64,000 nucleotides of DNA, from NCBI GenBank assembly GCA_029266615.1, contig JAQSWN010000016.1:1-64000 (forward strand). Reading direction: 5' to 3'. Shown here piece after piece: positions 5,925 to 27,149 of the stretch (the first letter of the stretch is position 1; each line of letters begins with the position of its first letter). Source of the stretch: Polyangiaceae bacterium (GTDB lineage: Bacteria > Myxococcota_A > Polyangia > Polyangiales > Polyangiaceae). The notes under the pieces were generated by a model that did not search any database, was not told the origin of the DNA, and saw nothing but the letters and a program-made list of their open reading frames with translations. Both the position numbers and the translations under genes were made by a program.

Positions 5925-6707
5925 TCAGGCCACCTTGAAGCGACGCTCCACCAGGCTCATTACCCGGTCGAGCAAAAAGCCGATGAAGCCAATCGTGAGG
6001 ATGCACAAGATGATGTGCTCGTAGATGAGCGCGTTGTACTCCTGCCAAAGGAAGCCACCGACACCCGGCGCGCCCGTGAGCATCTCCGCTGCGACGATGA
6101 CGAGCCACGCGATACCGAGGCTCAACCGAAAGCCCGTGAACATGTACGGCAAGGCCGCCGGGATCGTCACCTTGACGAGCTTCTTCCACGGGGAGAGCCG
6201 CAGCACCCTCGCCACGTTGATGTAGTCCTGCGGAATCGACCGGACTCCGAGCGCGGTGTTCATGACCGTCGGCCACATTGAACACATCGCGATCGTGAAG
6301 ATGCCGGCTGGCTCCGGCTTTTGGAACAGCACCAACCCGAGCGGCAGCCATGCCAGCGGTGACACGGGCCGCAGCACCTGGATGATGGGATCGAACGTGT
6401 CCGTGAAGCCCTTGGACATGCCCAAGAGTAGGCCGATGGGCGTGCCGATCAGCACGGCTAGGGTGTAACCCTTGGCCACGCGAATCAGCGAGTACCAAGT
6501 GAAACGCAGAATTCCCTGGTCGAGCTCGCCCCGCTTCTCGAAGGGCTCCAAGACATAGGGCTTGCTGATTTCCCATGTCTTCAGTGGAGACGGGAGGTTG
6601 GGGGCCACGCTGGAGCTCGCGATGGCCCACAACAGGACGACGCAGCCTGCCCCAACGAGCGGGAGCAGCACGTACTTGACGAGATTCTCGACCAGGTTGC
6701 TCTTCAT
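5925..6707 (-). CDS. nrtB: Nitrate-type ABC transporter permease
   Basis: A 260-residue inner-membrane permease with about six transmembrane helices. The cytoplasmic EAA-type loop reads [23 protein letters not shown] (split around residues 165-190), and the segment [23 protein letters not shown] is characteristic of the NtrB/NrtB/SsuC permease family. The start ATG at 6707 follows a good cggaggaac ribosome-binding site. It sits between the binding-protein gene (15 nt upstream) and two ATPase genes, giving a complete importer. Nitrate or nitrite is favoured over sulfonate or bicarbonate by the NrtA-like binding protein and by nitrate reductase genes 25 kb away. Confidence 0.88.
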
Positions 6708-6722: not shown

Positions 6723-8006
6723 TCAACTCTTCATGGAGTGCACAGCGAACGAGGTGGCGAACTTCTCCGGCTCTTTGGGATCGAAGACGGCGCCGTCGAA
6801 CAAAGTTTCCGGCGCGTCGCTCATGCCCCCGTGCGTGACGCCGAGCTCCTTCATCGCCTCTTCGTAGATGTCATGGCGCATGACCTGCTTGGCGACGCCT
6901 TCGTAGTCCGGGGCGCCCGTTACCATTCCCCAGCGGCGGAACTGTGACAGCCAGAACTTGGCGTACTTGGGCTGCGGGTAGTTGCAGTTACGGCTGCTGA
7001 AGATCATGTAGTTCTCGTCTTCTTTCTTGCGGCCGTCCCCGAAGTCGTAGTGACCCTGCAGCCGCGGGAGAATCAGCTCGGGTGCGCAGTTGATGTAGGT
7101 GGCTTTGGAAACGAGGGCGGCTTGCTCCGGGCGATTCTTCATGTCGTCCAGCCATAGGCTCGCCTCGTGAAGGGCCTTGATGACGGCCTTGACCGTCTTC
7201 GGGTTCTTCTGCGCGAACTCCTCCGTGAAGGCGCACACCTTTTCCGGATGATCCTTCCAGATGTCTTGCGTGTTGATGGCGGTAAAGCCGATACCATCCG
7301 CGATGGCCCGCGCGTTCCACGGCTCTCCGACACAGAAGCCGTCCATCTTGTCCACCTTCATGTTGGCCACCATTTGCGGAGGCGGGACAGTGACGAGAGC
7401 AGTGTCCGTATCCGGGTTGATGCCGCCGGCGGCGAGGAAGTAGCGCATCCACATCGCGTGGGTGCCGGGCGGGAACGTCATCGCGAAGGTCATTGGCGTG
7501 CCCTTCTTCTTCGCTTCGTCCACCAAGGGTTTGAGCGCTTTGGGATCGGCGGCGACCTTGCCCTTGAGTGCCGTCTTCAGCGTGATGGATTGCCCGTTAC
7601 GATTGAGCATCCACGGGATGACCATTGGCTTCTTGGGGGAGCCGAGTAGACCCATGGTCGACGCGATGGGCATGCCGATGAGCATGTGAGTCGCTTGGAT
7701 ATCCCCGTTCGAAAGCGAGTCGCGAATGGCAGCCCAGCTCGCGCCCTTCACGATGGTAGAGTTGATGCCGTACTTCTTGAACAAGCCTTTTTCGTGGGCA
7801 ATCACGATCGGAGAGCAGTCGGTCAGCGCGATCATGCCGAAGCGCAGGTCAGCGACTTCCGGCTTCGACGCGTCGACTACTCCGGCGCTCGCCGACGCCA
7901 CGGGCGATCCGGTCGCCGCGTCCGACTTGCTGCAAGCGGGCAACGCGAGCGCGGCCGGCAGCAGCGCTCCTGCTTTCAAAACGTCACGTCTTCCAAACGT
8001 CGTCAT
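6723..8006 (-). CDS. nrtA: NrtA/CmpA-family ABC substrate-binding protein
   Basis: A 427-residue protein starting [20 protein letters not shown], a Tat-like RR signal, followed by ALPACSK, which could be a lipobox, so it is probably exported folded and anchored at the membrane. The mature part shows NrtA/CmpA landmarks: [13 protein letters not shown], the [20 protein letters not shown] segment and [11 protein letters not shown]. These proteins bind nitrate, nitrite or bicarbonate for the cognate ABC importer. It has a strong gaggaggt ribosome-binding site and lies 23 nt after the barrel gene and 15 nt before nrtB. Bicarbonate is the main alternative ligand. Nearby ammonium and nitrate genes favour nitrate. 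Confidence 0.88.
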
Positions 8007-11041: not shown

Positions 11042-11339
11042 TGTGACTCCGAAGCGCGCAAGCCGCGCGCCGTGGGATGGACGATGAACTCAGGACCACG
11101 GCTTTTCAAGGACGATCTGACGACTCGGATCCGTTCCTTCGCTCATCGTTCCCAAACAGGATGAGTGAGCAAGTCATCGTTCGGCATTCCACGAATCGGT
11201 ACGCGTAACGCGCGACAAAGATCGCAAATCGACGAGAATTTTGCGGAGACATGCGCGCGAAACAGAAGCGAAATGCGCGCCCGAGGAAGCTCAGAACATC
11301 GAGGCACGTGCCGCAACGCGCGCCACGTCTGCAGCGCAC

Positions 11340-12815
11340 ATGTTGGATCCAACAACCCTTCAGGAAGTTGCCAAGCAATCGGCGGACACGGCGCAAGGCC
11401 TCGGTCAGTTGACTGTGTCGGCAAACCTCGTTTGGACTTGTTTGTGCGCCTTCATGGTCATGTTCATGCAGGCGGGGTTTGCGCTCGTGGAAACCGGTCT
11501 CACCCGCTCCAAGAACGTCGCCCACACCATGGCGATGAATTTCTTGGTGTACGCCATCGGTATCATCGGCTTTTGGGCCATCGGCTTCGGCCTCCAGATG
11601 GGCGGCGTCGGAGCGATGGCAACTTACGGCGGAGACGCCTCGCTGTCGCAAGAGTTCACCGTGAACGTCGGCGGCAAGCAGTGGGGGCTGTTCGGAACCA
11701 CGGGCTTCTTTCTACCGCTCGCGCAATACACACCCGCCGTCGCGACGATGTTTCTGTTTCAAATGGTGTTCATGGACACCACCGCGACCATTCCGACGGG
11801 CGCATTGGCCGAGCGTTGGAAGTTTGGAGCGTTCATCGCATTCAGCTTCGTGATTTCGACTGTCATCTACCCGGTCTATGCTAACTGGGTTTGGGGCGGA
11901 GGGTGGCTCTCGCAGCTAGGCCACAACTACGGTCTCGGCCACGGCCACGTGGACTTCGCAGGCTCCTCCGTCGTGCACATGACGGGCGGCGTCACGGCCC
12001 TCATCACCTGTAAGCTCCTCGGGCCACGCCTCGGCAAGTACAACGCGGACGGCACGCCCAATCCCATTCCGGGCCACAACATCCCGATGGCGGTCTTGGG
12101 CACCTTCATTCTCTGCTTCGGCTGGTTCGGGTTCAATTCCGGGTCGACCTTGGCCGCGAGCGACAATCGCTTCGCGATCGTGGCCGTAAATACGATGCTC
12201 GCGTCGGCGGCGGGCGCGCTCGCGGCGACGTTCTACGGCAACCTCAAGTTCGGCAAGCCGGATCCAACGTGGATGTGCAACGGCATGCTCGCGGGGCTCG
12301 TCGCCATCACTGCGCCCTGCGCGTTCGTGAGCGCCGGCACCTCACTCTTCATCGGCGCGGTGAGCGGCTTCCTCGTCATCGCCGCCGCCCTCTTCGTCGA
12401 GACCACGCTCAAGATCGATGACCCCGTCGGAGCCATCGCCGTGCACGGGTGCAACGGACTTTGGGGGATCTTGGCGGTCGGCTTGTTTTCGAACGGCACC
12501 TACGGCGAAGGGCTGAACGGCGTCACGGGCCCGGTCAAAGGATTGTTCTACGGAGACAGCGGCCAGCTCTTCGCATCGCTCATCGGCATCGGCGCCAACA
12601 TCGTCTACGTCGGCCTCCTGGCGAGCGCCTCCTTCGTCGTCATCGGCCGCATGATGGGCGGGCACCGAGTCTCGCCCGAGGTCGAGCTCGCGGGGCTGGA
12701 CGTGCCGGAGATGGGAGTCGACGGCTACGTCGGCGACCCGGGAATCATCCTGCCGGACGAAGCCGCCACTCAACCCCCTGCCCTCTACCCCGTGCATACC
12801 GCAGGCAGTCAGTAG
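11340..12815 (+). CDS. amt: Ammonium transporter (Amt family)
   Basis: A 491-residue channel protein with the 11-12 helices of the Amt/Mep/Rh family. The pore hallmarks are present: DFAGSSVVHMTGG with D205 and H213 (equivalents of E. coli AmtB D160 and H168) and AVHGCNGLWG with H369 (equivalent of H318). The ATG at 11340 is preferred because residues upstream are polar and unlike the family. The first helix then starts around residue 30. It moves ammonium/ammonia across the inner membrane. No glnK lies next to it, unlike many amtB loci. Together with nitrate import and nitrate reduction in this window it suggests local clustering of nitrogen genes. Confidence 0.95.
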   Translation: MLDPTTLQEVAKQSADTAQGLGQLTVSANLVWTCLCAFMVMFMQAGFALVETGLTRSKNVAHTMAMNFLVYAIGIIGFWAIGFGLQMGGVGAMATYGGDASLSQEFTVNVGGKQWGLFGTTGFFLPLAQYTPAVATMFLFQMVFMDTTATIPTGALAERWKFGAFIAFSFVISTVIYPVYANWVWGGGWLSQLGHNYGLGHGHVDFAGSSVVHMTGGVTALITCKLLGPRLGKYNADGTPNPIPGHNIPMAVLGTFILCFGWFGFNSGSTLAASDNRFAIVAVNTMLASAAGALAATFYGNLKFGKPDPTWMCNGMLAGLVAITAPCAFVSAGTSLFIGAVSGFLVIAAALFVETTLKIDDPVGAIAVHGCNGLWGILAVGLFSNGTYGEGLNGVTGPVKGLFYGDSGQLFASLIGIGANIVYVGLLASASFVVIGRMMGGHRVSPEVELAGLDVPEMGVDGYVGDPGIILPDEAATQPPALYPVHTAGSQ

Positions 12816-13732: not shown

Positions 13733-14608
13733 TCAGTCTTCGTGGGTGACGTCGACGGCGACGTTGAGGCTGTGCTGGCCGCCGCCCAAGACGATACCGC
13801 GCAGCGGGCTCACATCCGAGAAGTCGCGGCCCCACGCCACCGTGACGTGACGCTCACCTGGAAAGACAGCGTTCGTGGGATCGAAGTCAATCCAACCCAG
13901 CGACGGTAGAAACGCGGCCGCCCACGCGTGCGACGCGTCTGCCCCGACCAGCTTGGGGCGACCGGGGGGCGGCTCCGTTTCCAGGTAGCCGGAGACGTAA
14001 CGACCGGCGAGGCCGAGCGAGCGCAGGCAGCCCACGGCGAGCTGCGCGAAGTCTTGGCAGACGCCGCGACGCTCGCGGAGGACCTGCGCGAGCGGGGTGC
14101 TCACGTCCGTAGCGAGCGGCTCGTATTTGAACTCGCGAAAGATGCGCTCGGACAGCTCGCCGATGGCGTCTACGAACGGGCGCCCGGGCGAAAACGTCGG
14201 CGCTGCGTACTCGGCGAGCATCTGGTGGCTGCGCACCAGCGGCGAATCGAAGCAGAACTCGCGCGCGGCGAGGAACTGACGATCTTGCTCGAGTTGTTCG
14301 CGCACTTTCTCCCAGGAGAGGCGCGTGGCGGGCGTGAGCTCGAGCTGGGGTGGCGCGACCTCCACCCGAGTTTCGCTCTTCACTTCCAAGACGTCGTGCG
14401 GGGCCAATACCTCGCAGAAATGCGTGGGATTACCGAAGTAGTCGCGCCCCGCTTGCAGCTCCGCTTGTTCGGGCGAAACGGTGATGCGGCTCTCCAACAC
14501 ACGCTGATGAACGAGATTGCGCGGCTCGAGGTGCATCGCGTGGGTGGCGTGCAGCACGGGGCTCTCGTACTCGTAGCGCGTGGTGTGCGTAACGCGGTAA
14601 CGCCTCAC
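13733..14608 (-). CDS. Transglutaminase-like cysteine protease-fold protein (last gene of ATP-grasp/alpha-E operon)
   Basis: A 291-residue protein that begins with the bacterial transglutaminase N-terminal domain (RRYRVTHTTRYEYESPVLHA) and continues with the catalytic core. The Cys-His-Asp triad is visible as RRGVCQDFAQLAVGCLRSLG (Cys about 183), DASHAWAAAFLP (His about 225) and GWIDFDPTNA (Asp about 240). Start is GTG at 14608, overlapping the upstream stop as GTGA. In ATP-grasp/alpha-E operons such proteins are predicted to act as peptidases or amide-forming enzymes on a peptide tag. The actual substrate is unknown. The domain and triad are seen directly. Confidence 0.88.
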   Translation of the reverse strand: MRRYRVTHTTRYEYESPVLHATHAMHLEPRNLVHQRVLESRITVSPEQAELQAGRDYFGNPTHFCEVLAPHDVLEVKSETRVEVAPPQLELTPATRLSWEKVREQLEQDRQFLAAREFCFDSPLVRSHQMLAEYAAPTFSPGRPFVDAIGELSERIFREFKYEPLATDVSTPLAQVLRERRGVCQDFAQLAVGCLRSLGLAGRYVSGYLETEPPPGRPKLVGADASHAWAAAFLPSLGWIDFDPTNAVFPGERHVTVAWGRDFSDVSPLRGIVLGGGQHSLNVAVDVTHED

Positions 14609-17211
14609 GTGGCCTCCAAGTCTTCGTTGACCCAGTGCGGAGGCGAAACCGCGCGCTCCTTCGAAAGGTGCGAAAACCAGGTCGCGCTGATGTCGTCCGA
14701 CAGTTGCCAGAACAAGACGAGGACCTCCTCCAGCAACTGACGGAGCCCCGCGCCGTCTCCGGCGCAAGCTTGCTCGATGTCCGCTGTGAGCAGGCTGCTG
14801 TCCAGCGCGATCACGCGCCGCTCGGCCCGACTGCGCACGACCCCCTGACGGCCCGGCAAGCGGTGCAGGTGCTCTTTGGCGAGCTCCACCTGGAAGGCGA
14901 CGGAGCGAGGGTTGGTGGAGTCGGTCAGTAGCAGATCGACCACGGGCGCCGCTTGCAGGCTCGATAAGTAACGCGCGCGGTAAGTGAGCAAGCTGTCCGC
15001 GATCTCCAGGAGCGCTTCCATGTGTAGACGCGTCGCGCCCGGCGCGAGGAACGCCTGCAAGAGCTGGAGCATGTAGGTGCCGCGCTCGATGCGACGCCCT
15101 AGATCCAAGAAGGTCCACGCGTGACCGCGCACCATGTTGTCCAGCGTCGTGCCGCTGACAGCGGCCAAGCCGAAAATGAGCTGGTCCAGTGCTTCGATGG
15201 CGACCACGGGGCTCGTGAGCGCGCGGGCGTCCAGCCCGCTCAAGGTGCGGGTGAGGCGCCGCAGGACGTGCCACGCGTCGCGCGACAACCGGCTACGCAC
15301 GCTGAGGGTGAGACCATGGATGCGACCGAGCATCGACGGGAGGCCTTCGGTGGCGACCCGATCCGCGACGAGGCCGTAGAGCAGCGCCTCCGCGGGCGTC
15401 GCTTCTTGCGTAGGGTGTGGGACGCCGGCGTTGCCACCCGCGGTCCGCGGGATCACTCCGAGCCGACCGAGCGTGTCGATGATGGCCGAAAGTACGAACG
15501 GCGCGTCCGGACCCGCTTCCGAGCCGATGCGTTCGAAGCCAGCGCGCGCCAACCGCGCCGTGGAGTCAACGCGCTCCACGTAGCGTCCGAGCCAGAAGAT
15601 GTCGTCCAGCAAGCGGCTCGGCAAGTCCAGACCGCCGCGCTGCAGCTCCACGCGCTGGTCCGGCATGGCGGGGAGCGCTGGCTCCGCGCTGCCCGGAGCC
15701 GCCGGGATCCATACGTCTTTGCTGTGCGCGTTGCTCTTGATGGCGAGAAACAAGCCGTCCGGAGCTTCATTGATGCGCGCCAAGCCGCCGGGCATGACGT
15801 CGTAGTCGTCGCCGTCTCTTACCAAGAAGGAACGGAACGCCACCGTACCGGACGAGAGCTCTCCGCGGTCCAGCACCGGCAAGGCCGAGAGCTCCGGCCA
15901 CCGTTCCGCCACGAAGTCGCCCGAGTGCACCCGCAGTCGGTCGAACAGCTCGCGACGGGCGTCGGTCGAAAGATGGCCGGGGACGAACGGCTCCCCGCGC
16001 CGATCGCTGAAGGCGGGCTTGATGACGAACTCGTCCGGGTGCGCGAGGACCTCGCGGAGCGACGCCGGATCTCCGCACCAGAGCGTGGGCACTGACTCCA
16101 GCAGCAGCTCCTCGCCCAGCAAATGGCGGGCGAGCACCGGCAGGTAGGCCTTCAACGCCGGAGTTTCGCCGATGACGGCACCCAGCGGGTTGGCCAAGCC
16201 GACGTTGCCGGCGCGCGCCGCGAGCGTGAGCCCAGCGACGCCTCCGAGCGAGTCCTCGCGCAGCTCGAGGGGATCCGACCAGGCATCGCCGACACGGCGC
16301 AGCACGACGTCCACCTTGCGCAAGCCGGACAGGGTTTTTAGGTAGACGTAGCCGCCCCGTACACTGAGGTCCCGGCCCTCCACGAGCTCGTAACCGAGGT
16401 AGCGCGCCAGGTAAGCGTGCTCGAAGGAGCTTTCGTCCCGCGCGCCCGCGGAGAGCAAGACCACGCGCGGCTGCCCGCGGGTGCCGGGCGGCGCGAGGCT
16501 CTCCACCGTGCGGCGGAGCTTGTTGAAGAAGCCGGCGACGCGCTCTACGCGATATTCGCGGAACAGCTCCGGCAACGTGCGCCCCAGCACCAATCGGTTC
16601 TCGAGCGCGTAGCCGGCGCCCGTCGGCGCCTGGGTGCGGTCCGAGAAGACGCGGAAGCGGCCTTGCGGGTCGCGCCCCACGTCCGCGGCGTAAAGATGCA
16701 ACCACTGCCCGCCGAGCGGCTGCCAGCCGTGACAGGCGCGCAAAAACTCCGGATGCCCGAGCACGAGCTCCGCCGGAATGAGGCCGTCACGCACTAGTTG
16801 CTGGGGGCCATAACAGTCGCGGATGATGGCATCCAGCAAGCGCGCGCGCTGGCGAAGGCCCGCCGACAACGCGGCCCACTCTGCGCGGTCCAAGACGAGC
16901 GGCACCGCATCCAGCTGCCAGGGACGATTAGTCCCCTCGGGCACGCCCAGGATGTTGAAGGTGACCTCTTGCTGGGTGATGCGCTGCCGAACGAGACGTC
17001 CGAGCTCCTCCAGGTCCTTCGGATCTTTGCTCTCCAGGAACTTCGCGAGTGGGCGCTGGTGCTGGCGAATTTCCCCCGCGGCGTCGCGCAGCTCGTCGAA
17101 GCTCCCGGCGCGCCGCGATGGCGGAATACTCGAGCGGCGCTCCTGAGACTGCTCCACGCTGCCTCTTGTAAGCGAAGAAGCAGGCGCCTGTCGATTCTGG
17201 CCCTGGATCAC
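14605..17211 (-). CDS. Fusion of circularly permuted ATP-grasp and alpha-E domains
   Basis: An 868-residue protein. Residues about 60-500 form a circularly permuted ATP-grasp domain (COG2308/DUF404-DUF407 type) with FRVFSDRTQAPTGAGYALENR, a DVVLRRVGDAWSDPLELRED segment and the EFVIKPAFSDRRGEPFVPG nucleotide-binding region. Residues about 540-860 form an alpha-E domain beginning LLDDIFWLGRYVERVDSTAR. ATP-grasp enzymes ligate carboxylates to amines, and this group is predicted to make peptide-like amide bonds. Alpha-E has no known activity. Start GTG at 17211 overlaps the DUF2126 gene stop. The operon encodes a second, unfused copy of each domain, so fusion and split forms coexist. Confidence 0.88.
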   Translation of the reverse strand: MIQGQNRQAPASSLTRGSVEQSQERRSSIPPSRRAGSFDELRDAAGEIRQHQRPLAKFLESKDPKDLEELGRLVRQRITQQEVTFNILGVPEGTNRPWQLDAVPLVLDRAEWAALSAGLRQRARLLDAIIRDCYGPQQLVRDGLIPAELVLGHPEFLRACHGWQPLGGQWLHLYAADVGRDPQGRFRVFSDRTQAPTGAGYALENRLVLGRTLPELFREYRVERVAGFFNKLRRTVESLAPPGTRGQPRVVLLSAGARDESSFEHAYLARYLGYELVEGRDLSVRGGYVYLKTLSGLRKVDVVLRRVGDAWSDPLELREDSLGGVAGLTLAARAGNVGLANPLGAVIGETPALKAYLPVLARHLLGEELLLESVPTLWCGDPASLREVLAHPDEFVIKPAFSDRRGEPFVPGHLSTDARRELFDRLRVHSGDFVAERWPELSALPVLDRGELSSGTVAFRSFLVRDGDDYDVMPGGLARINEAPDGLFLAIKSNAHSKDVWIPAAPGSAEPALPAMPDQRVELQRGGLDLPSRLLDDIFWLGRYVERVDSTARLARAGFERIGSEAGPDAPFVLSAIIDTLGRLGVIPRTAGGNAGVPHPTQEATPAEALLYGLVADRVATEGLPSMLGRIHGLTLSVRSRLSRDAWHVLRRLTRTLSGLDARALTSPVVAIEALDQLIFGLAAVSGTTLDNMVRGHAWTFLDLGRRIERGTYMLQLLQAFLAPGATRLHMEALLEIADSLLTYRARYLSSLQAAPVVDLLLTDSTNPRSVAFQVELAKEHLHRLPGRQGVVRSRAERRVIALDSSLLTADIEQACAGDGAGLRQLLEEVLVLFWQLSDDISATWFSHLSKERAVSPPHWVNEDLEAT

Positions 17212-20200
17212 TGGATCCAGCGCAGATCCAGCGTCATCGGAAAGTCAGGATTCACCCGCACCTGTTGCGGCGTGAACGACCCCTGCGTGTGCCCGAAAGC
17301 GTTGAATCGCGCGATACGTCGGCCCTCAGCGGCCGCGGCATTGACTGGCCGGTCGAAGGCGGCCCGGCCTCCCGCATGGACGATGTGGTAGGTCGCGCCC
17401 GCGATCGAGCGCTGATTCCAGCGATCGTACAAGTCGAAGCGCAGCGGACCGTGAGTCCCGATCGTCGGGTGCAAGCAGGAGGGAGGTTGCCACGCGCGGT
17501 ACCGCACGCCGCACACGTACTCACCGCGCACGCCGGTGGGGGTGAGCGGTAGCTCCACTCCATTGACCGACACGTGGTGGCGCTCTGGCGCGACCCCGAA
17601 CACGCGCACCTGCAGCCGTTCCAAAGACGAGTCCACGTAGCGCGCCTGGCCGCCCGCGCCGCTCTCCTCACCCAGCACGTTCCACGGCTCCAGCGCGCCG
17701 CGCAGCTCCAGCTGAGTCGTGTCTTTCACGACTGTACCCAAAAGAGGAAAGCGGAACTCGAAATGAGGCTTGAACCAAGCCGAATCCATGGCCACGCCGC
17801 GACGAGACAGCTCGCCCAGCACGTCTTGGAAATCCACATCCACGAAGTAGGGCAGGAGAAAGCGATCGTGGACTTGAGTGCCCCAATGCACGAGCGGCTG
17901 CGTGTAGGGCTGCTCCCAGAAGCTGGCGAGCAGCGCGCGGATCAACAGCTGCGTGGCGCTCGACATGCGCGCGTGCGGCGGCATCTCGAACGAGCGCAGC
18001 TCCACGAGGCCGAGCCGCCCCGTCGGACCGTCCGGCGAGTACAGCTTGTCGATGCAGATTTCCGTGCGATGAGTGTTGCCGGTGAGGTCCACCAGCAAAT
18101 GCCGGAAGATGCGATCCACCAGCCAGGGCGGACAATTCACGCCTCGCGCCGGAAGCCGTGAGATCGCTAGCGAGAGCTCGTGCACGGACTCGTCACGGCC
18201 CTCGTCCGTGCGCGGCGCTTGCGACGTCGGGCCGATGAAGCGACCAGAGAAGAGGTACGAAAGCGACGGGTGATTGTGCCAAAATGAGACGAGGCTCGCC
18301 AACAGATCGGGCCGTCTTAAAAACGGGCTGTCACCTGCGGTCGCCCCGCCCATCACGAAGTGGTTCCCGCCGCCGGAGCCGATGTGAGCGCCGTCGAGCT
18401 CGAACTTCTCCGCCACGAGGTGCTCGGCGCGCGCTTCTTCGTAGAGCAGCTCGGTTTGGCTCACGAGCTCCGGGAAGGAGCGCACGTAAGGCACGTTCAC
18501 TTCGATGACGCCCGGATCCGGCGTGACCTTGAAGTTGCCGAGGCGCGGGTCGTCCGGCGGCGCGTACCCTTCGAGCTCGACGGGAATGCCGAGCTCCTTC
18601 GCGCAGACTTCAATCGCCGCGACGAGCTCCAGGTAACCTTCGAGCGTCGCCACTGGCGGCATGAAGATGTGCAACATCCCCTGACGCGGCTCCGCCACCA
18701 GCGCCGTGCGAACGACGCCAGTCGCAGACTCGAACGCGCTCGGCGACGTGCGGCGTACTCCATACGGATCCAACGTGGCTTTGGGCGCGGATGGCGGCTT
18801 GCTACCAGTGCCGCCATCTCCCTCACCGCCCGCGCCGCGGACGCGGCCACGATCGACGCGCGTCGGCTCGGCGCGGCCAGAATACTGCGGCGGTCCGGCT
18901 TCGCCTCCACGCGCCCCGACCGGGAAGGTGAACTGGCGCGGCAGCGGCGGGCGCTCCGCGAACGTATCGAGGGGCGGCTCGAAGCCGCGATCTTGCTGCT
19001 CGGCCCAGGGCTGCGAGTCCAACGGCAGGCGGAAACCAGCTGCCGAATCTCCCGGGATGAGGAAGCAGTGCTCGTCCCTCAAGAACCAGCGCCCGCTCAC
19101 CCAGCGCCGGTCCCAATGCGCCAGCGGCAGCACGTAACCGACCACGGTGTTGAGGCCCTGCTTGAAGACGCGCGCTAGCCGCGCGCGCTCGATGGGGTCG
19201 TCCAGGCGCGACTCCAGCGGGTCCACGTTGGTGGGAAGGCGTCGCTCACGCCAGAGATGGTACCAGGCGTCTTCGAACGCCGGCATGGTGCCCGGCTGCT
19301 CGACGGAGAGCAGCTCCGTGAGGCGCTTGACGAAGCGGCTCGCCTGCTCCGGCCCGTGGCCATAGTTGGTCCCGGTCATCGCGATGAGCGACGGGTCTTG
19401 CCAAGTGGGCACGCCGTCGTGCCGGAAGTAGCAAGCGAGCGCCCAGCGCGGCAGCGGCTCCCCGGGGTACCACTTGCCCTGACCGTGGAACAAGAAGCCT
19501 CCCGGCTGCCACGCACCGTGCAAGCGGCGCAGCAGGCGATCGCCCATTTCCTGTTTGTTCCCGCCCAAAGCAGCGGTATTCCACTCTGGCGCGTCCGGCT
19601 CGCGGCTGCTCACGAACGTGGGCTCTCCGCCCATGGTGAGCCGCACGTCACCTTCGAAGAGGCGACGGTCGACCTCGTTGCCGCAGCGAACCAGCGCCTC
19701 CCACTCCTCTTCCGTGTACGGCTTGGTGACGCGCGGGCGATCGATCACGCGCTCCACCTTCATCTCGAAGCCGAACTCGGTTTCGATTTCCTCCGCCGTG
19801 AGGATGCCGCCTTCGATGGGCGCGGCCGACGCGGGCTCCGGGGAGCAGGCAAGCGGGATGTGCCCTTCCGAAGCGAACAACCCGGACGTGGGATCGAGCC
19901 CAATCCAGCCAGCGCCAGGGACGTAGGCCTCGCACCACGCGTGCAGATCCGTAAAGTCCGACTCTGGCCCCGTGGGACCTTCGAGCGGCTTTTGGTCGGG
20001 GACGAGCTGAATCAAGTAGCCGGACACGAAGCGCGCAGCGATGCCCAGCTCGCGCAGGACATGTACGAGCAGCCAGCTCGAGTCCCGGCAAGAGCCGCGG
20101 CCTTTTTCCAGCGTTTCTTCGGGCGTTTGCACGCCCGGTTCCATGCGAATGACGTAGTCGACCACCTCTCGAACGGAGCGGTTCACGTCTACCAGGAAGT

Positions 20201-20627
20201 CCACCGTGCCGCGCGAGCGCAGGTCCAGCTTCGACATGAAGCTACGGAAGGCAGCGTTGCGCTCGCCCTTGGCGAGGTACGGCGCCAGCTCACGCTGCAG
20301 CGCAGCCGCATACTTGAACGGATACTTCTGAGCGCTGTCCTCCAAGAAGAAGTCGAACGGATTGATGGCTTCCAGGTCGACCACCAAGTCCACGTCGACC
20401 GAAAACTCCTTCACCGGCTCCGACACCACCACGCGGGCCAAGAAGTTGCCCTGCGGGTCTTGCTGCCAATTCAGGAAATGGTCACGCGGCGCGATGCGCA
20501 GCGAGTAACTGAGCACCGGCGTCCGTGTGTGCGGTGCGGGCCGGAGCCGCACGACCTGCGCCCCGAGCAGCACGGGCGTGGCGTAGCGGTAGCTCGTCTT
20601 GTGAGTGAGCGCGACACGAATAGCCAT
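17208..20627 (-). CDS. DUF2126-family protein with N-terminal transglutaminase domain
   Basis: An 1139-residue protein, usual length for the COG4196/DUF2126 family. Residues about 1-270 are a transglutaminase: N-terminal beta domain (IRVALTHKTSYRYATPVLLG), then GRGSCRDSSWLLVHVLRELG (Cys about 178), DLHAWCEAYVPGAGW (His about 230) and GLDPTSG (Asp about 243). The remaining ~850 residues are DUF2126, with segments such as RLTMGGEPTFVSSREPDAPE and NHPSLSYLFSGRFIGPTSQA. A Gly/Pro/Arg-rich linker occurs near residues 590-660. The C-terminal half includes the ELRSFEMPPHARMS region. It lies between the alpha-E gene (14 nt upstream) and the ATP-grasp/alpha-E fusion (4-nt overlap). Activity is predicted from the triad only. 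Confidence 0.88.
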   Translation of the reverse strand: MAIRVALTHKTSYRYATPVLLGAQVVRLRPAPHTRTPVLSYSLRIAPRDHFLNWQQDPQGNFLARVVVSEPVKEFSVDVDLVVDLEAINPFDFFLEDSAQKYPFKYAAALQRELAPYLAKGERNAAFRSFMSKLDLRSRGTVDFLVDVNRSVREVVDYVIRMEPGVQTPEETLEKGRGSCRDSSWLLVHVLRELGIAARFVSGYLIQLVPDQKPLEGPTGPESDFTDLHAWCEAYVPGAGWIGLDPTSGLFASEGHIPLACSPEPASAAPIEGGILTAEEIETEFGFEMKVERVIDRPRVTKPYTEEEWEALVRCGNEVDRRLFEGDVRLTMGGEPTFVSSREPDAPEWNTAALGGNKQEMGDRLLRRLHGAWQPGGFLFHGQGKWYPGEPLPRWALACYFRHDGVPTWQDPSLIAMTGTNYGHGPEQASRFVKRLTELLSVEQPGTMPAFEDAWYHLWRERRLPTNVDPLESRLDDPIERARLARVFKQGLNTVVGYVLPLAHWDRRWVSGRWFLRDEHCFLIPGDSAAGFRLPLDSQPWAEQQDRGFEPPLDTFAERPPLPRQFTFPVGARGGEAGPPQYSGRAEPTRVDRGRVRGAGGEGDGGTGSKPPSAPKATLDPYGVRRTSPSAFESATGVVRTALVAEPRQGMLHIFMPPVATLEGYLELVAAIEVCAKELGIPVELEGYAPPDDPRLGNFKVTPDPGVIEVNVPYVRSFPELVSQTELLYEEARAEHLVAEKFELDGAHIGSGGGNHFVMGGATAGDSPFLRRPDLLASLVSFWHNHPSLSYLFSGRFIGPTSQAPRTDEGRDESVHELSLAISRLPARGVNCPPWLVDRIFRHLLVDLTGNTHRTEICIDKLYSPDGPTGRLGLVELRSFEMPPHARMSSATQLLIRALLASFWEQPYTQPLVHWGTQVHDRFLLPYFVDVDFQDVLGELSRRGVAMDSAWFKPHFEFRFPLLGTVVKDTTQLELRGALEPWNVLGEESGAGGQARYVDSSLERLQVRVFGVAPERHHVSVNGVELPLTPTGVRGEYVCGVRYRAWQPPSCLHPTIGTHGPLRFDLYDRWNQRSIAGATYHIVHAGGRAAFDRPVNAAAAEGRRIARFNAFGHTQGSFTPQQVRVNPDFPMTLDLRWIQ

Positions 20628-20641
20628 ATTACGGACCTAAG

Positions 20642-21670
20642 CTAAAATTCGAAAAACTGACTCTGAATTGCGGAGCCGGCTTCGTTGAGCTGGCCCTGCA
20701 AAGAATCGACGTACTGGTGAAGCCCAAGCTCCATGATTTCGTCGATTTTCGCGTAGTCGAGCTCGGAACGGAGGCGTCCGAGCAAGCGCTCCGCTTCGCT
20801 CTCGAAAGAGCCGAGCGGCGCGCCGGAGATGCTGTGCAGGCTTTCCTGCGCGCGGCGCACGCAGCGCAGGATGCTGCGTGGGAAGTGGCGATCCAAAAGC
20901 AAGAACTCGGAAACGGCCGCCGGCGTAGTGACGTGCCAGATCTGACGGTACATCTGCAAAGCGCTCGCGGAGTTGAGCAGCGTCGACCAACCGACATGAT
21001 CCACCGCGACGCTGCCGTTCTGGGCTTGAGTCTGCGTCTGCCCCCGCCCCGGCGTTGCCGTTTGCGCCTGGGTCTGCGTTTGCGTCTGGTCCTGGGTCTG
21101 CGTCTGCGTCTGCGTCGGGGTCAGCAAGAAGTACTTCACGTCCAAGATGCGTGAGGTCTTGTCCGCTCGCTCCAGCATGCGCCCCAGATTGGCGAAGTGG
21201 TAGGCTTCGCCCCGCGACAGCGTAGCGTTGGTAACGCCTTCGAAATAGATTCCGGCACGTTTCACCTTGGCGCAGAAGTCGATGAGGTCCTCCGGCTGCG
21301 AGCCAGGGCGGGCCGCGTGCACCACCATCAAGTAGAACTCGTTGAGCTCCTGCCACATCTCCCGAGAAATGATGTCGCGGACACTGCGCGCGTTTTCCCG
21401 CGCTCGAGACACGCTCGTGAGAATGGAGCTGGAGTACTCGTCGTCGAACGTCAGAAACTGGGTGACGTTCTCGGGCGTGGCCTTCCCGTACTTCTTTTCG
21501 AAGAACTCTTGGTCCCCGGTCGTGTGCACGAGGGAGGCCCAATCGCGCTCGCCGTGAGCCGAGCTCTCCAGCATCAAGTTCAGGCTCACGTCGACGAAGC
21601 GCGCGACGTTCTCCGCGCGCTCCACGTAGCAGCTCGCCCAGTAAATGGCGTCAGCGACGCGGCTCAGCAT
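20642..21670 (-). CDS. Stand-alone alpha-E domain protein with Gln/Thr-rich insert
   Basis: A 342-residue alpha-E (COG2307) protein. The start at 21670 gives the family opening MLSRVADAIYWASCYVERAE. The second signature, LGRMLERADKTSRILDVKYF, is at about residues 158-180. An insert of roughly 37 residues (about 183-220), made of repeated Thr-Gln dipeptides, separates it from the C-terminal helical part. Alpha-E proteins are all-helical, have conserved acidic and arginine residues and always travel with ATP-grasp and transglutaminase genes. It lies 28 nt after the ATP-grasp gene and 14 nt before the DUF2126 gene. Confidence 0.88.
   Translation of the reverse strand: MLSRVADAIYWASCYVERAENVARFVDVSLNLMLESSAHGERDWASLVHTTGDQEFFEKKYGKATPENVTQFLTFDDEYSSSILTSVSRARENARSVRDIISREMWQELNEFYLMVVHAARPGSQPEDLIDFCAKVKRAGIYFEGVTNATLSRGEAYHFANLGRMLERADKTSRILDVKYFLLTPTQTQTQTQDQTQTQTQAQTATPGRGQTQTQAQNGSVAVDHVGWSTLLNSASALQMYRQIWHVTTPAAVSEFLLLDRHFPRSILRCVRRAQESLHSISGAPLGSFESEAERLLGRLRSELDYAKIDEIMELGLHQYVDSLQGQLNEAGSAIQSQFFEF
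21012..21122 (-). repeat. Low-complexity Thr-Gln coding repeat in alpha-E gene
   Basis: On the coding strand the sequence is built of hexamers acgcag/acccag with small variations, coding alternating Thr and Gln, interrupted by a Pro-Gly-Arg-Gly break. It is inside the alpha-E gene and stays in frame. Such runs are prone to slippage, so copy number may vary between strains. Confidence 0.75.
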
Positions 21671-21698
21671 TTGGCAGCTCCCCGATCTAGTGGCGCGG

Positions 21699-23129
21699 TC
21701 ACGAGGCCAACACCCAGGTATCTTTGCTGCCGCCACCTTGTGAGGAGTTGACGACGAGCGAGCCCTTCTTCAACGCCACGCGCGTGAGCCCCCCGGGGCT
21801 GACCTGGATTTCCTTGCCGTAGAGCACGTAGGGCCGCAGGTCCACGTGACGACCCTCGATGCGATCGCCGACGATGGTTGGCACGCGCGAGAGCGATAGC
21901 GTCGGCTGGGCGATGTAGCCGCGCGGGTTCTTCTTGATGCGCTCGGCGAAATCCACCCGTTCGGCTGCGGTGGAGTGGGGCCCCACGAGCATGCCGTAAC
22001 CACCCGCGCCGTCCGTCGCTTTCACGACCAAGGCTTCTAGATGAGACAGCACGTAATTGCGATCCTCTTCGTGCGTGCACACGTAGGTGGGAACGTTGGG
22101 GATGATGGCGTCCTGATCCAGATAATATTTGATGATGCGCTCGACGTAGCGGTAGATAGCCTTGTCGTCTGCGACTCCGGTGCCAGGCGCGTTGGCCAGC
22201 GCGACGCGCCCCTTCAAGTAAACGTCGAAGATGCCCGGTACGCCGAGCAGCGACTCGGGCCGGAACGCGAGCGGGTCCATGAAGTCGTCGCTCACGCGTC
22301 GGTAGACGACGTCCACCCGCTGGAGGCCGGCGGTGGTGCGCATCTGCAAGAAGCCGTCGCGCACGACCAGGTCGAACGGCTCGACGAGCTCCACGCCCAT
22401 TTGCTGCGCTAAGAAGGCGTGCTCGTAATAGGCGCTGTTGTAGCGCCCAGGGGTGAGAACCACGACGCGCGGATCCGACACCGCGTCCGGCGCAAGGTGC
22501 CGTAGCGTCTCCAGCAGGCGCAGCGGGTAGTCGTCCACCGGGCGCACACGGAGGCTCTCGAATATTTTCGGGAAGGTGCGCTTGAGCACCTGGCGGTTTT
22601 CGAGCACGTAGCTCACGCCGGAGGGACAACGCAGGTTGTCTTCCAAGACGTAGAACTCGCCGTTCTTGTCGCGCACCAGGTCCGAGCCGGTGATGTGACA
22701 CCAGATTCCGCGTGGAGGCTTCACCCCCTCACATTGAACACGGTAGTCCGCGCAGGTGTGTACGAGGTCCGCCGGAACGACGCCGTCCTTGATGATCTTC
22801 TTTTCGCCGTACACGTCGGCGATGAACAGGTTCAGCGCTTCGATGCGCTGCTTGAGGCCGCGCTCCAGTCGCTCCCACTCTTTGGCGGAGATGATGCGAG
22901 GAATGATATCGAACGGGAAGATGCGCTCCCCTTCCCCCTTGAGCGTGAAGGTGATGCCCATGCTGAGCAGGGCGCGCTCGGCGGCGGCTTGCCTTCCGAG
23001 TAGCTCTCCCTCTGGGAGGCCGTTGATGCCATTGACGAGGCGCGAGCAACCGGGGCGCGGGGCGTCCGTTGCTTCGAAGATCTCGTCGAAAAAAGGGCCA
23101 GTCTGCGGGTCGTAACCGTGGAATTTCAT
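21699..23129 (-). CDS. Circularly permuted ATP-grasp protein (first gene of five-gene operon)
   Basis: A 476-residue protein of the DUF404/DUF407 (COG2308) family. Landmarks are DLVHTCADYRVQCEGVKPPR, SYVLENRQVLKRTFPKIFES, VVVLTPGRYNSAYYEHAFLA, DVVYRRVSDDFMDPLAFRPE and the nucleotide-binding loop LVVKATDGAGGYGMLVGP. The ATG at 23129 is chosen because the protein then starts MKFHGYDPQTGPFFDE as in relatives, with cgaggg upstream. A start nine codons earlier is possible. It is promoter-proximal in the operon ATP-grasp, alpha-E, DUF2126, ATP-grasp/alpha-E, transglutaminase. The family is predicted to form peptide or amide bonds with ATP. The product is unknown. Confidence 0.9.
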   Translation of the reverse strand: MKFHGYDPQTGPFFDEIFEATDAPRPGCSRLVNGINGLPEGELLGRQAAAERALLSMGITFTLKGEGERIFPFDIIPRIISAKEWERLERGLKQRIEALNLFIADVYGEKKIIKDGVVPADLVHTCADYRVQCEGVKPPRGIWCHITGSDLVRDKNGEFYVLEDNLRCPSGVSYVLENRQVLKRTFPKIFESLRVRPVDDYPLRLLETLRHLAPDAVSDPRVVVLTPGRYNSAYYEHAFLAQQMGVELVEPFDLVVRDGFLQMRTTAGLQRVDVVYRRVSDDFMDPLAFRPESLLGVPGIFDVYLKGRVALANAPGTGVADDKAIYRYVERIIKYYLDQDAIIPNVPTYVCTHEEDRNYVLSHLEALVVKATDGAGGYGMLVGPHSTAAERVDFAERIKKNPRGYIAQPTLSLSRVPTIVGDRIEGRHVDLRPYVLYGKEIQVSPGGLTRVALKKGSLVVNSSQGGGSKDTWVLAS

Positions 23130-23609
23130 ATCCCTCGGGCTTTCCTGCGCATCCAAACTTGGTCCCTGGTTCCCAGGAGCTTCGCGAATATTTCAGGTTT
23201 GTTTCGCACTGAACAGCCTCGTGTCGCGCCGCGTCCGCGAATCTCGCTCATCACGTCGCGAAGCTGCTCCCGTCGCCGCTCGGGCGCCATGCTTTTGCCA
23301 AAACGTCGTTCACATCGGCGCAATTCACGGCTTCGACCCTCAGGCCAATCGAGCGTAGCCGGCGCAGACGACCCGCACCACGGCCGGCCAGGCTTCGTGC
23401 GCACCCTCGAGAGAGTCGCACCGGCGTGTCGTTCCGGTGGCCGCGCGATCCATGCCCAGGGCGCTGGCAGCCGCTGCAGCCACCACCCCGAGGTCGCGAT
23501 CGACTCATGCGACTGCGCCCGAGGTAGACGAGGGACGACCTTGCATTCATCGGGGCGGGGCACGCTCCGCTATCCCGGCCCCGCCGATCATTCTGTCAAA
23601 GCGGGTTGC
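23130..23609. other. 480-bp intergenic region upstream of ATP-grasp operon
   Basis: No convincing gene on either strand. Open frames encode Arg/Pro/Ser-rich sequence. The region must carry the promoter for the five-gene minus-strand operon and the 3' end of the DUF1592 gene transcript. No strong hairpin was found by eye. Confidence 0.5.
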
Positions 23610-25262
23610 TCAAGGCGCGCGCCGCTGACGGAAATGCGGCTCCGCGGCGAGTGACGCGAGGTAGTCCACGAAGCCCACCTGACGGTCGATGAAGGCGCCG
23701 CGCTTGGTCTCGCCCAGGCACGCCTCCGCGACGCCGTTCACGTAGGTGGACACGAGGCCGGTCGTGCACTCGTAGGGAGCCTTCTGCGCCGCGAGTCCCT
23801 GCGCGAGCTCCTCTTGGCTCGCGAACTCGAACAGGTGCTGCGCCGGATCTGGGTAACCGGGCATGTAGCTCACGGCGTTGATGGGCAGACCGCCGTCCAA
23901 GTCGCGGTAGCGCCCCGTCTCGTCGAAATGCTCGAAGCCGAAGCCGATGGGATCGAAGCGGGTATGGCAGGATTTGCAGCCCGCGTCGTTCAGGTGAATC
24001 TCTTCGTAGTGCTGGCGCGTGGTGAATTGGCCCGGCATCGGATCGCTCAGCTTGGGCACCGTCGGCGGCACCGGCGGGACGACTCGACACAGCAGTCGAT
24101 CCATCACCAGCACGCCGCGCTTCGTCGGGGACGACGCCTTCGGTCCCGACTGGGCAGCGAGGATCGCCCCCTGGGCGAGGATTCCGATGCCGCGCCCCGC
24201 GGGTCGCGACGTGACGGCGAAGGATGAGGCCGGCGCCGGAAAGCCGTAGAAAGTGGCGAGGGTCGGCGTGGGCGTCGTAAACGGTGCGGTGAGCAGCTCG
24301 TTCAACCCACCGTTTTGGGTGACGACGACCTCGCCGATGAAGCGACGCGTCTCGGCAACCATCTCGTCCCGCAGAGTTTCGAAGTTGGGGATGTTCGCCT
24401 TCGTGACGCTCGCGGTGCGGCCGTAGTGCAGCCAGGCGTCGAAGAAGCGCTCTATCGTACGGAGGCCCGGTTCGCTCAACAAGAGCTCGCGCGCGGTTGC
24501 TTCGAGCGCCTCGGGCGTCGCCAGCTGCCCCGCTTCGGCCTTGCCCAATAGCGCTTCGGTGGGGGCGGTGCCGGTGTAGTCGTACGCGAGCTGGGTCGCG
24601 ATCTCCGCGGGCGTGAGCTGGTACGTGCCGTTCTGCGCAACGCCGATCTCGCGCCGGTAAACGGCGTGAGGCGACTGCACGAGCGCGCGTGTGAGCCACG
24701 CGATGCCCGCCGGAAAACCCTTCGCCGTCGATGCCTGGGTGAAGAGCGCGAGGTACTTGGTCTTTTCGTCTGGGGTGAGGGCGCGCCGGAACAGGCGCTT
24801 GCCGTACTTGTCCAAGAATTGACCGGCACACGTCGCGTCCGGCGCACTGGTGGAGCACGGCAACATATTGGCGAGCGCGGGGCCGCTCACGGCAGCTCCC
24901 GCCGCCTTGCCCGCTTCGTCGAGCTCACCCGCGGTCTGGTTACTGACGCTGAGGAGCGTCGCGTCGTTGTCGAAGCCGTGCTTGGAGATGGGATCCGCGC
25001 TGAGCTTGAGGGTCCACGCGCTCTTCGCCTCGGGGAAGACGTCTTCGAGCGTGTGCAGTAGCTCGTCGCGACTGAGCCGACGCAAGCGAGGCAAGCCGAT
25101 CTTCGACTGACCGCAGACAGAGCTCGGATCGGGGCCGGGCTCGGAACCGCCGACGCCGGACGTACCGGCCATTCCCCCGGGCTGCTGGGAGTCGTTCTTG
25201 TCGCCGCTTCCGCCACAGGCGGCGAGGGTGAGCAGGCCAATGAGACCGAGGAGGCGCCTCAT
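23610..25262 (-). CDS. DUF1592/DUF1588/DUF1585 multidomain lipoprotein with haem-type CxxCH motif (pair A)
   Basis: A 550-residue protein with a lipoprotein signal (MRRLLGLIGLLTLAACGGSG). Domain order follows the Planctomycetes/Myxococcota family: DUF1587-like (about 50-120), DUF1595 (about 150-205, GKRLFRRALTPDEKTKYLAL), DUF1592 (about 210-350), DUF1588 (about 360-460, with CKSCHTRFDPIGFGFEHFDE containing a CxxCH haem-attachment motif) and DUF1585 at the end. The start ATG at 25262 overlaps the DUF1552 stop by 4 nt. These proteins are thought to be surface or periplasmic, possibly electron-carrying. Their biochemical role is unknown. Confidence 0.88.
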   Translation of the reverse strand: MRRLLGLIGLLTLAACGGSGDKNDSQQPGGMAGTSGVGGSEPGPDPSSVCGQSKIGLPRLRRLSRDELLHTLEDVFPEAKSAWTLKLSADPISKHGFDNDATLLSVSNQTAGELDEAGKAAGAAVSGPALANMLPCSTSAPDATCAGQFLDKYGKRLFRRALTPDEKTKYLALFTQASTAKGFPAGIAWLTRALVQSPHAVYRREIGVAQNGTYQLTPAEIATQLAYDYTGTAPTEALLGKAEAGQLATPEALEATARELLLSEPGLRTIERFFDAWLHYGRTASVTKANIPNFETLRDEMVAETRRFIGEVVVTQNGGLNELLTAPFTTPTPTLATFYGFPAPASSFAVTSRPAGRGIGILAQGAILAAQSGPKASSPTKRGVLVMDRLLCRVVPPVPPTVPKLSDPMPGQFTTRQHYEEIHLNDAGCKSCHTRFDPIGFGFEHFDETGRYRDLDGGLPINAVSYMPGYPDPAQHLFEFASQEELAQGLAAQKAPYECTTGLVSTYVNGVAEACLGETKRGAFIDRQVGFVDYLASLAAEPHFRQRRAP

Positions 25263-26701
25263 GCCAGCACCTCCGCCATCATGCCGGTCGAGTCTGGGAA
25301 CGTGCCGGTGGTGCCCATGGCTTGGCACAGCGAACGGTACAGGTCACCCGCCGGACGGTCCTGCGGGAACGTCACCACGCGACCTGGTTTCAAGGCGCCT
25401 CCGCCGCCGCCAATGATGACGGAGGGGATGTACGTGTTCACGCCTTCTGCGCCTGACGTGGTGATTAGCTTGGTCTCGGTCGTGTGCCACGCGCCGTCGC
25501 CAATCTCGCTCATGACGTAGACGATGGTGTTGTCGATGACCTTCTTGCTCGGGTCCGCCGGATCCGGCTCCAACAGCCCCGCGAGCGCGTGCGTGTAGAG
25601 CTGCTCCATGAACCAACGCTGGCACTTGGCGAATGCCTGGCGCGCCGTCACTTGCAACGTTTTCGCCGGATACGCATCCGCCTGCGGCGTGGTGTGCGAC
25701 AGCAAGCTGTGGTGAGGCCCCGGCGACTGCATGAATTTGAAGTCGAACTCGCAGTTCGTGTACATCGGCTGAACGGCCACGACCTGACGCGCGTTGCACT
25801 TGATGGCCGCGCCCGCGACCGCCAGCTGCGCCGCGAGCAGCATCGGGAAGTTCTCCTCCTTGAGGAAGAACTCGTCCGACTGCCCGGCAGCGGCGGTGCG
25901 CAGCGCCTCGAGCGCGGGTAGCGAGGGCGCGCTGTCGCAACTAATGGCGCCGCCGCCTCCTCCTGCCTTGAGCGACGCGATGGCGTCGAGGTGCTTCTTG
26001 AGCTTGGTTTGCTCTTCGGTGAGGCCGTTCAGCTCCTGCGAGAGCGTTTGCAGCTCCCCTTCGGTCAGAGAGCGGAGTGAATTGGTCAGCTCCACGTCCG
26101 GATCCGGACCGGTGTCCGGCTTGGGGGCGGAGATGCCACTGAACACGGCGTCGTACGCGGCGAGCGGGTTCTTCTCTGGAACGACGGGGGTGCCGTCCCA
26201 CATCAGCTTGCCGTCTTTGTCCAAGCCGAAGGGGCGGTGCGCGCAAGCGCCGAGAACGAGCGGCTTGACGTTGAGGCCAGCGGCGATTTGATGCTCCAGA
26301 GTCACGCGCGGCGCGCCTTCGTCCGGCAGCTTCTCGTCGGGCCCGCTCAAGCCCGAAAGCGCTACGGCGAGCGCCTCGTGGGTTTGGGCACCCTTGGGGT
26401 AGCGAATGCCCTGCACGACCGTGGTGTAGGCCTTCAGCTGCTCTTCGAACGGGCCGAGGATGCCGACGCCCGGGGCGCTGAGTGAGAACTGGGTCGGGTC
26501 GTTCGCCATGACCTGGGGCGAGAAGTGCTCCGGGGGCGCGCCGTGCGGCATGTAAAACAAGAGGAACCGCTTCGATGCGGGTGTCGCCTGCGCCAGCGCG
26601 ACGCTCGATAAGCGCGACGCCGCCGCGGCCGAGAGTCCCACCCCTAGCGCGCTGAGGAAGATGCGGCGACGAACGCGGAAGGCAGCGTTGCTGTGACCCA
26701 T
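25259..26701 (-). CDS. DUF1552-family secreted protein (pair A)
   Basis: A 480-residue protein with a twin-arginine style signal (RVRRRIFLSALGVGLSAAAA, AxA-like end LAQA). The mature part has the DUF1552 opening FLLFYMPHGAPPEHFSP and the later DNTIVYVMSEIGDGAWHTTE and IPSVIIGGGGGALKPGR segments. DUF1552 is related to DUF1501/alkaline phosphatase-like folds but no reaction is known. The start at 26701 has an aaagga site, better than the ATG seven codons upstream. Co-transcribed with the DUF1592 lipoprotein gene downstream (ATGA overlap). The two products probably act together outside the inner membrane. Confidence 0.88.
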   Translation of the reverse strand: MGHSNAAFRVRRRIFLSALGVGLSAAAASRLSSVALAQATPASKRFLLFYMPHGAPPEHFSPQVMANDPTQFSLSAPGVGILGPFEEQLKAYTTVVQGIRYPKGAQTHEALAVALSGLSGPDEKLPDEGAPRVTLEHQIAAGLNVKPLVLGACAHRPFGLDKDGKLMWDGTPVVPEKNPLAAYDAVFSGISAPKPDTGPDPDVELTNSLRSLTEGELQTLSQELNGLTEEQTKLKKHLDAIASLKAGGGGGAISCDSAPSLPALEALRTAAAGQSDEFFLKEENFPMLLAAQLAVAGAAIKCNARQVVAVQPMYTNCEFDFKFMQSPGPHHSLLSHTTPQADAYPAKTLQVTARQAFAKCQRWFMEQLYTHALAGLLEPDPADPSKKVIDNTIVYVMSEIGDGAWHTTETKLITTSGAEGVNTYIPSVIIGGGGGALKPGRVVTFPQDRPAGDLYRSLCQAMGTTGTFPDSTGMMAEVLA

Positions 26702-27149
26702 GATGTCCTTTTGTCGTAGCACGAGGAGGTCACTCAGCCAGCGTAATGCTCGAGAATTTCGGGCTTGGTACCGCTCCCATGCGGCACCGGTTTCAGTATC
26801 GATCCGCGCCAGCGCGGTGGAAAGTGATGGCGTCCTTGAACGAGCCTCGCCGCTTGCACGTTTTCGTCACGCCCGCGCTCGGGGCGGCTCGGGGGAATGC
26901 CCCGCATTGAGCCGCTGAGAGTAAGGGGGCAAGCCCCTAGCCCACGGCCCCGAGTCAGCGCCAACTCTGCAGGTCGAGGTCGCGCGTCTCGCGTCGCGAC
27001 GGCCCAGGGCGCGCTCGGAAGCCGCCGCGTTCGACCGCGCTCGACCTCTCACCTCCGCTCCAACTGTTGGGAGTGGTGATGGGCGGCGGGCGACGCACGC
27101 GGATCGCGCAGGCGGTGTAACCGCTCAAGCTTTCCCGCATAGGGCCGCT
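26702..27149. other. 448-bp intergenic region between divergent DUF1552 and P460-like genes
   Basis: No convincing gene; short frames are Arg/Pro-rich. Promoters for both divergent genes must be here. I see no strong inverted repeat or terminator. Confidence 0.5.

Follow-up and report, generated by a model that had tools for sequence, protein, structure and literature searches.

A five-gene ATP-grasp, alpha-E and transglutaminase operon in a Polyangiaceae bacterium contains a conserved ATP-grasp homolog lacking ATP- and metal-site residues

Results

Organization of the operon and its surroundings

The window analyzed here, a 64-kb stretch of DNA from contig C233 in an 8.9-Mb Polyangiaceae genome (444 contigs, contamination 7%), harbors a five-gene operon on its minus strand. 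P1 (23129-21699; 476 aa) encodes an ATP-grasp protein (Pfam CP_ATPgrasp_2, 2.2e-167), P2 (21670-20642; 342 aa) an alpha-E protein (Alpha-E, 3.9e-91), P3 (20627-17208; 1139 aa) a protein in which transglutaminase-like domains precede DUF2126 (Bact_transglu_N, Transglut_core, DUF2126; E=0), P4 (17211-14605; 868 aa) an ATP-grasp domain fused to alpha-E (CP_ATPgrasp_2, 1.4e-134; Alpha-E, 3.4e-66), and P5 (14608-13733; 291 aa) a stand-alone transglutaminase-like protein (Bact_transglu_N, Transglut_core). By their coordinates, P1 to P3 are separated by 28 nt and 14 nt, and each of the last two junctions is a 4-nt overlap. Coordinates and Pfam matches thus bear out the genes, order, domains and junctions described in an earlier note on this DNA; its statement that every component is doubled does not hold, as there is only one DUF2126, and the fused ATP-grasp comes from a sister family that has lost most or all of the ATP- and metal-site residues. 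Because DUF2126 is itself a putative amidoligase, judging by its Pfam name, the ligase-type domains of the operon come to three, with one left unpaired. The genome has one DUF2126 match and three alpha-E matches, with additional ATP-grasp matches on contigs C222 and C267; on C222, an alpha-E domain fused to a hemerythrin domain adjoins another ATP-grasp (L043, 8945-10504).

Genes for an ammonium transporter (Amt; 11241..12815, plus strand) and for a nitrate-type ABC transporter lie beside the operon both in the window and in the sister genome G278. The latter comprise NrtC (4199-5656) and NrtB (5925-6707), both over the NCBIfam cut-off, and an NrtA-like binding protein identified by Pfam NMT1_2 only (6723-8006), all on the minus strand. 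Upstream of P1, a minus-strand block (23163..23212) is identical at 48 of 50 bases in G278, where the sequence beyond it has diverged, and is a possible regulatory element. The upstream neighbors (23610-26722) encode a DUF1587/1592/1588/1595 protein and a DUF1552 protein.

An intact ATP-grasp protein and its alpha-E partner

P1, which is 51-66% identical to 24 relatives, retains its site residues: E163, N165, R167, D321-D322-K323, a GAGGYG loop and D430. Each of E163, N165, R167, D321, D322, K323, G376, G377, G379 and D430 is present in 50/50 aligned unfused proteins. E163 and N165 may be metal ligands, as in glutathionylspermidine synthetase; homology to that enzyme did not place them, since the only matches were PDB entry 3n6x and one chance-level chain. 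The 3n6x match spans P1 residues 10-474, with the P1 site residues intact, and P4 differs in the same comparison.

Both ER motifs are present in P2 and in the alpha-E domain of P4, and are conserved in both versions of alpha-E, although the fused version lacks residues that are nearly fixed in the unfused type (e.g. R91, N93, R95). P2 is also interrupted by 36 residues of TQ-rich repeats (21014-21121, minus strand).

The fused ATP-grasp family has lost residues of the ATP/metal site

In alignments, P4 shows neither the E-x-N and DDK elements nor the glycine-rich loop of the ATP/metal site. Residues were counted over 50 unfused and 113 fused proteins (35 and 84 in a first set), each scoring above 150 and aligned over more than 380 residues, and labeled fused or unfused according to which of the window's own domains phmmer matched better; the counts do not include the fused relatives present in a set of 117 plasmid records. 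Eight ATP/metal-site residues were considered: 50/50 unfused proteins keep all eight, and among the 113 fused proteins the number retained is zero in 88, one in 22 and two in three. N165, D321, D322, K323 and D430 are each found in 0/113, E163 in three, R167, G376 and G379 in six each, and G377 in 13. The replacements are themselves conserved, position 165 being arginine in 110/113 and position 167 glutamine in 93/113, next to an aspartate at 164 in 112/113. Residues common to both types, G171, Y174, R179, E236, R277, R278, G316 and R432, are present in 113/113 fused proteins, K469 in 111 and K370 in 100.

Four aligned fused proteins served as the query for our 80 named loci, the best 80 of 567, in which domains were then mapped; since the retrieval patterns include P[ST]GA[GA]YAL[EQ], fused proteins with active-type residues could have been missed among them. 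A profile search across the order, which makes no such demand, contributes 29 of the 113 fused proteins, all from one order.

In a tree of 68 proteins (thinned from 119), the fused and unfused families split at 100/100 support, and P4 sits on the longest terminal branch of all (1.19). Both ATP-grasp types occur in 15/15 genomes picked from the named loci; neither these genomes nor the named loci are independent samples, because Pseudomonas accounts for 7/15 and 31/80, respectively. Against G278 (L161), dN/dS is 0.039 for P4 (0.038 for the ATP-grasp part, 0.035 for the alpha-E part), 0.015 for P1, 0.058 for P2, 0.066 for P3, 0.020 for P5 and 0.151 for Amt. This comparison uses L161 alone; L162-L164 were set aside because dS is near saturation and because the transglutaminase of L162 and L163 may not be an orthologue. 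Three fused matches from the order-wide search (G258, G288, G289) contain one stop inside the matched stretch; at two of these loci (L176 in G258, L191 in G288), an open frame still spans both ATP-grasp and alpha-E.

Decay of the second copy is ruled out by the open frame of P4 and its dN/dS of about 0.04 against G278. The earlier note had named two findings that would tell against it: relatives with degenerate second copies (P4 itself is not degenerate), and ATP-grasp catalytic residues missing on alignment, which is what the second copy exhibits. We read the fused ATP-grasp from its sequence as a probable conserved pseudo-enzyme, and make no claim that site loss in this family is new to the literature.

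Transglutaminase-like domains and DUF2126

The Cys-His-Asp triads, described earlier as looking intact in both transglutaminase-type proteins, are indeed present and conserved. The triad of P3 (C180, H229, D245) is kept in DUF2126-fused relatives at 108/108, 107/108 and 106/108, and that of P5 (C184, H227, D243) in stand-alone relatives at 105/105, 105/105 and 103/105. P5 weakly matches PDB entry 3isr; in P3, only the transglutaminase part matches solved structures above chance level.

DUF2126 may have a GS-like fold. Across 107 full DUF2126 proteins, many polar residues are kept in 104-107, including E709, N711, H853, R854, E856, E876 and R878, a pattern as would be expected of an enzyme. A second, shorter DUF2126 is present in many loci of the window's class (L024-L063; 39 loci fetched for DUF2126, plus L043); in the 17 analyzed, those seven residues are found in 17/17, but others such as H756 (Q in 14) and E881 (R in 13) are not kept. 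DUF2126 may be dispensable, because none is seen in seven of the 80 named loci, three of them (L086, L087 and L112) with long flanks, or in a same-genus sister genome (G186, 88% complete). At the G186 locus (L166), alpha-E is followed by a transglutaminase, the fused gene and another transglutaminase; no DUF2126 separates the first transglutaminase from the fused gene, and the 88% complete genome has no match elsewhere.

Distribution and gene order

Genes encoding the DUF2126 protein, the fused protein and a transglutaminase occur together in 73/80 named loci, in a different order in L134, and an unfused ATP-grasp lies within 15/80. The exact five-gene order on one strand is found in 9/80, from several phyla: L068 (Gemmata), L074, L076 and L078 (Pedosphaera), L079, L105, L111 (Dechloromonas), L123 and L137, of which L074 and L105 have one additional transglutaminase at the end. 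The ATP-grasp/alpha-E pair follows the trio in L073 and L106, and is divergent in L089. Within the window's own order, where some mapped loci stop at contig ends, the fused gene is present in 30/31 and the exact order in 6/30 (L161, L164, L168-L171); L163 has an additional transglutaminase behind alpha-E, and the pair is divergent in several loci. The operon thus looks like two modules, often though not invariably adjacent. The locus is not special: its arrangement is widespread, and belongs to a known kind of bacterial gene set.

This kind of set is also plasmid-borne. The Enterobacter roggenkampii IncFII plasmid p1_120063 has a complete set (L145, 4153-13344) whose five annotated products and gene order match those of the window, all on one strand, with a fused protein 35% identical to the window's. 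On a Caballeronia plasmid, the five genes are interrupted by an opposite-strand metallopeptidase gene. Putative zinc-binding metallopeptidases adjoin or lie within the gene set in L026 (7042-8148) and L146 (9228-10289), and Peptidase_Mx was found in three of 104 neighbor proteins from 28 chosen loci. In this Pfam scan no family occurred in more than three proteins among the 25 of 112 families listed.

Relatives also have another version of the set. In 21/40 loci of the window's class (L029 and 20 others of L024-L063), the transglutaminase protein matches the glutamine-amidotransferase-like (GATase_4-type) Ntn domain of L029 (5997-7808), which Pfam confirms. None of these 21 loci contains a fused ATP-grasp, and no such Ntn domain was found in the 80 named loci or in the 30 loci of the order with a fused gene.

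Association with nitrogen metabolism

Published data on relatives hint at a nitrogen link. A Burkholderia cenocepacia cluster (BCAM1233-1236) encoding DUF404/407, DUF403, a transglutaminase-like protein and a large transglutaminase-like protein, which resembles the window's set by description, depends on NtrC and sigma-54 (PMC5491218); the fused gene is not mentioned in the accessible part of that report. In Pseudomonas putida, the proteasome-type PP_2685 and the type 2 CP ATP-grasp PP_2688 are reported to be higher on nitrate than on ammonium, with log2 values of 4.4 and 4.0 (PMC8050072). According to the portion available of another study, PP_2686-2688 are 11-15-fold up in nitrogen-limited wild type and still induced 14-20-fold in an rpoN mutant, PP_2685 is nearly flat in wild type (1.12), and NtrB/NtrC are termed only putative (PMC7801951). 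Excerpts of reports on Anbu describe expression upon nitrogen starvation, and also unchanged expression under various conditions; in marine metagenomes, DUF403/404/407 are reported to cluster with urea metabolism.

Among relatives, sigma-54-like sites with at most one mismatch lie upstream of 6/32 unfused ATP-grasp genes and 35/91 DUF2126 genes, where 1.7% is expected from first-order resampled sequence and start codons are approximate; Pseudomonas supplies 31/35 of the latter. A sigma-54 promoter in the window was ruled out: the candidate at 23286-23300 departs from the consensus at two positions and lacks conservation in G278, and the window contains fewer sites of this type than its shuffles do (47 vs. 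66). Nitrogen genes as a general neighbor were likewise rejected, since the Amt query matched one and the NrtA query none of the 80 named loci; NrtA and NrtB matches do lie near the gene set in G174 (L027). Expression of relatives, together with the neighboring nitrate and ammonium transporters, suggests a role under nitrogen limitation, which we offer as a lead and not a result.

Discussion

Iyer et al. are said to have described, in 2009, neighborhoods of amidoligase, alpha-E and transglutaminase genes, predicted to function in peptide synthesis or tagging, and the window shares with these neighborhoods its CP ATP-grasp, alpha-E and transglutaminase proteins; the GS-like ligase of these neighborhoods may have its counterpart in DUF2126. 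One version of such systems includes an Ntn-hydrolase peptidase, in contrast to the window, where Pfam detects none among the five genes.

The Anbu operon of Yersinia and Pseudomonas also combines ATP-grasp, alpha-E and transglutaminase genes, and its Yersinia ATP-grasp is reported to release phosphate from ATP (PMC6376114). Unlike that operon, the window's set has DUF2126 and a fused pseudo-ATP-grasp, and no PF00227 gene was found in its genome assembly. The Rim/Rlo systems offer a working analogy, pairing an ATP-grasp ligase with a peptidase; their peptidase is however an aspartic one, the Rlo transglutaminase is inactive and membrane-bound, and alpha-E and DUF2126 go unmentioned in the available portion of that report (PMC12239564).

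What does the fused ATP-grasp contribute? The earlier note proposed that the doubling reflects two successive ligations or two target classes, and two active ligases might be suspected from the CP_ATPgrasp_2 matches of both P1 and P4. Isolated site residues do survive in fused proteins (E163 in three, R167 and G376 in six each, G377 in 13), and because R277, R278, R432, K469 and K370 are kept, some ligand binding may persist; yet five of the site residues are absent from all 113 and no protein keeps more than two of the eight, so that a second active ligase seems very improbable to us. The part of that proposal which stands is a predicted amidoligase, alpha-E and transglutaminase system with intact triads, but not its doubling into two successive ATP-grasp ligations. 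Strong purifying selection on P4 and the conserved replacements D164, R165 and Q167 might instead indicate a new enzyme, with a DRTQ...GYALENR pocket carrying out ATP-independent acyl transfer or hydrolysis. We consider this unlikely: the same residues are equally compatible with binding, and conservation of the motif across the 80 named loci is to some extent built in, as the search pattern held part of it. We know of no enzyme with a site of this kind.

Another proposal, published for the related Anbu operon, would have ligases tag proteins, transglutaminase-like enzymes remove the tags and a proteasome-like particle degrade the tagged proteins. PF00227 genes, either Anbu or HslV, occur in 60/183 genomes of the order, including some with a fused gene (G159, G174). 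No match was found, however, in the window's own genome, an assembly of 444 contigs with 7% contamination, or in six of seven further genomes of the genus, the seventh being marginal. For this locus, we rate tagging and degradation as improbable, marginally more so than a new enzyme.

A pseudokinase-like role for the fused ATP-grasp is a tentative proposal that we hold with somewhat less than even confidence: an old and widely kept dead partner of an active sister, it may hold the acceptor or switch the amidoligase complex. Since the scaffold and several pocket residues are kept and the metal/phosphate site is lost, P4 most likely binds a substrate or partner without ATP.

The interpretation that, with modest confidence, seems to us the best overall is a single machine that would form and cleave amide bonds, built from two modules and operating under nitrogen limitation. 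The first module would be the ATP-grasp/alpha-E pair, in which P1 is the predicted working ATP-grasp, activating a carboxylate as an acyl phosphate and joining it to an amine. The second would be the trio encoded by P3 (DUF2126), P4 (pseudo-ATP-grasp/alpha-E) and P5 (transglutaminase); here the DUF2126 half of P3 may provide a second, unrelated ligase, and P4, with its attached alpha-E, would act as an allosteric subunit or adaptor. Through Cys-His-Asp chemistry, the transglutaminase-like domains in P3 and in P5 would then cleave or transfer the product. In the likely setting of nitrogen limitation, an amide-linked amino-acid compound or tag would be made or recycled. Against this interpretation, the sections available of the Anbu reports describe pull-downs without detectable interaction of Anbu with other operon proteins, and dispensability for growth under non-stress conditions.

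Gene sets of this kind span several phyla, and our literature search found no activity, substrate or product for any DUF2126-bearing set. Expression data on the relatives in P. putida KT2440, an innocuous laboratory strain, offer a condition under which to look. The loss of the site in P4 shifts the question from two ligations to the role of a conserved, apparently dead ligase.
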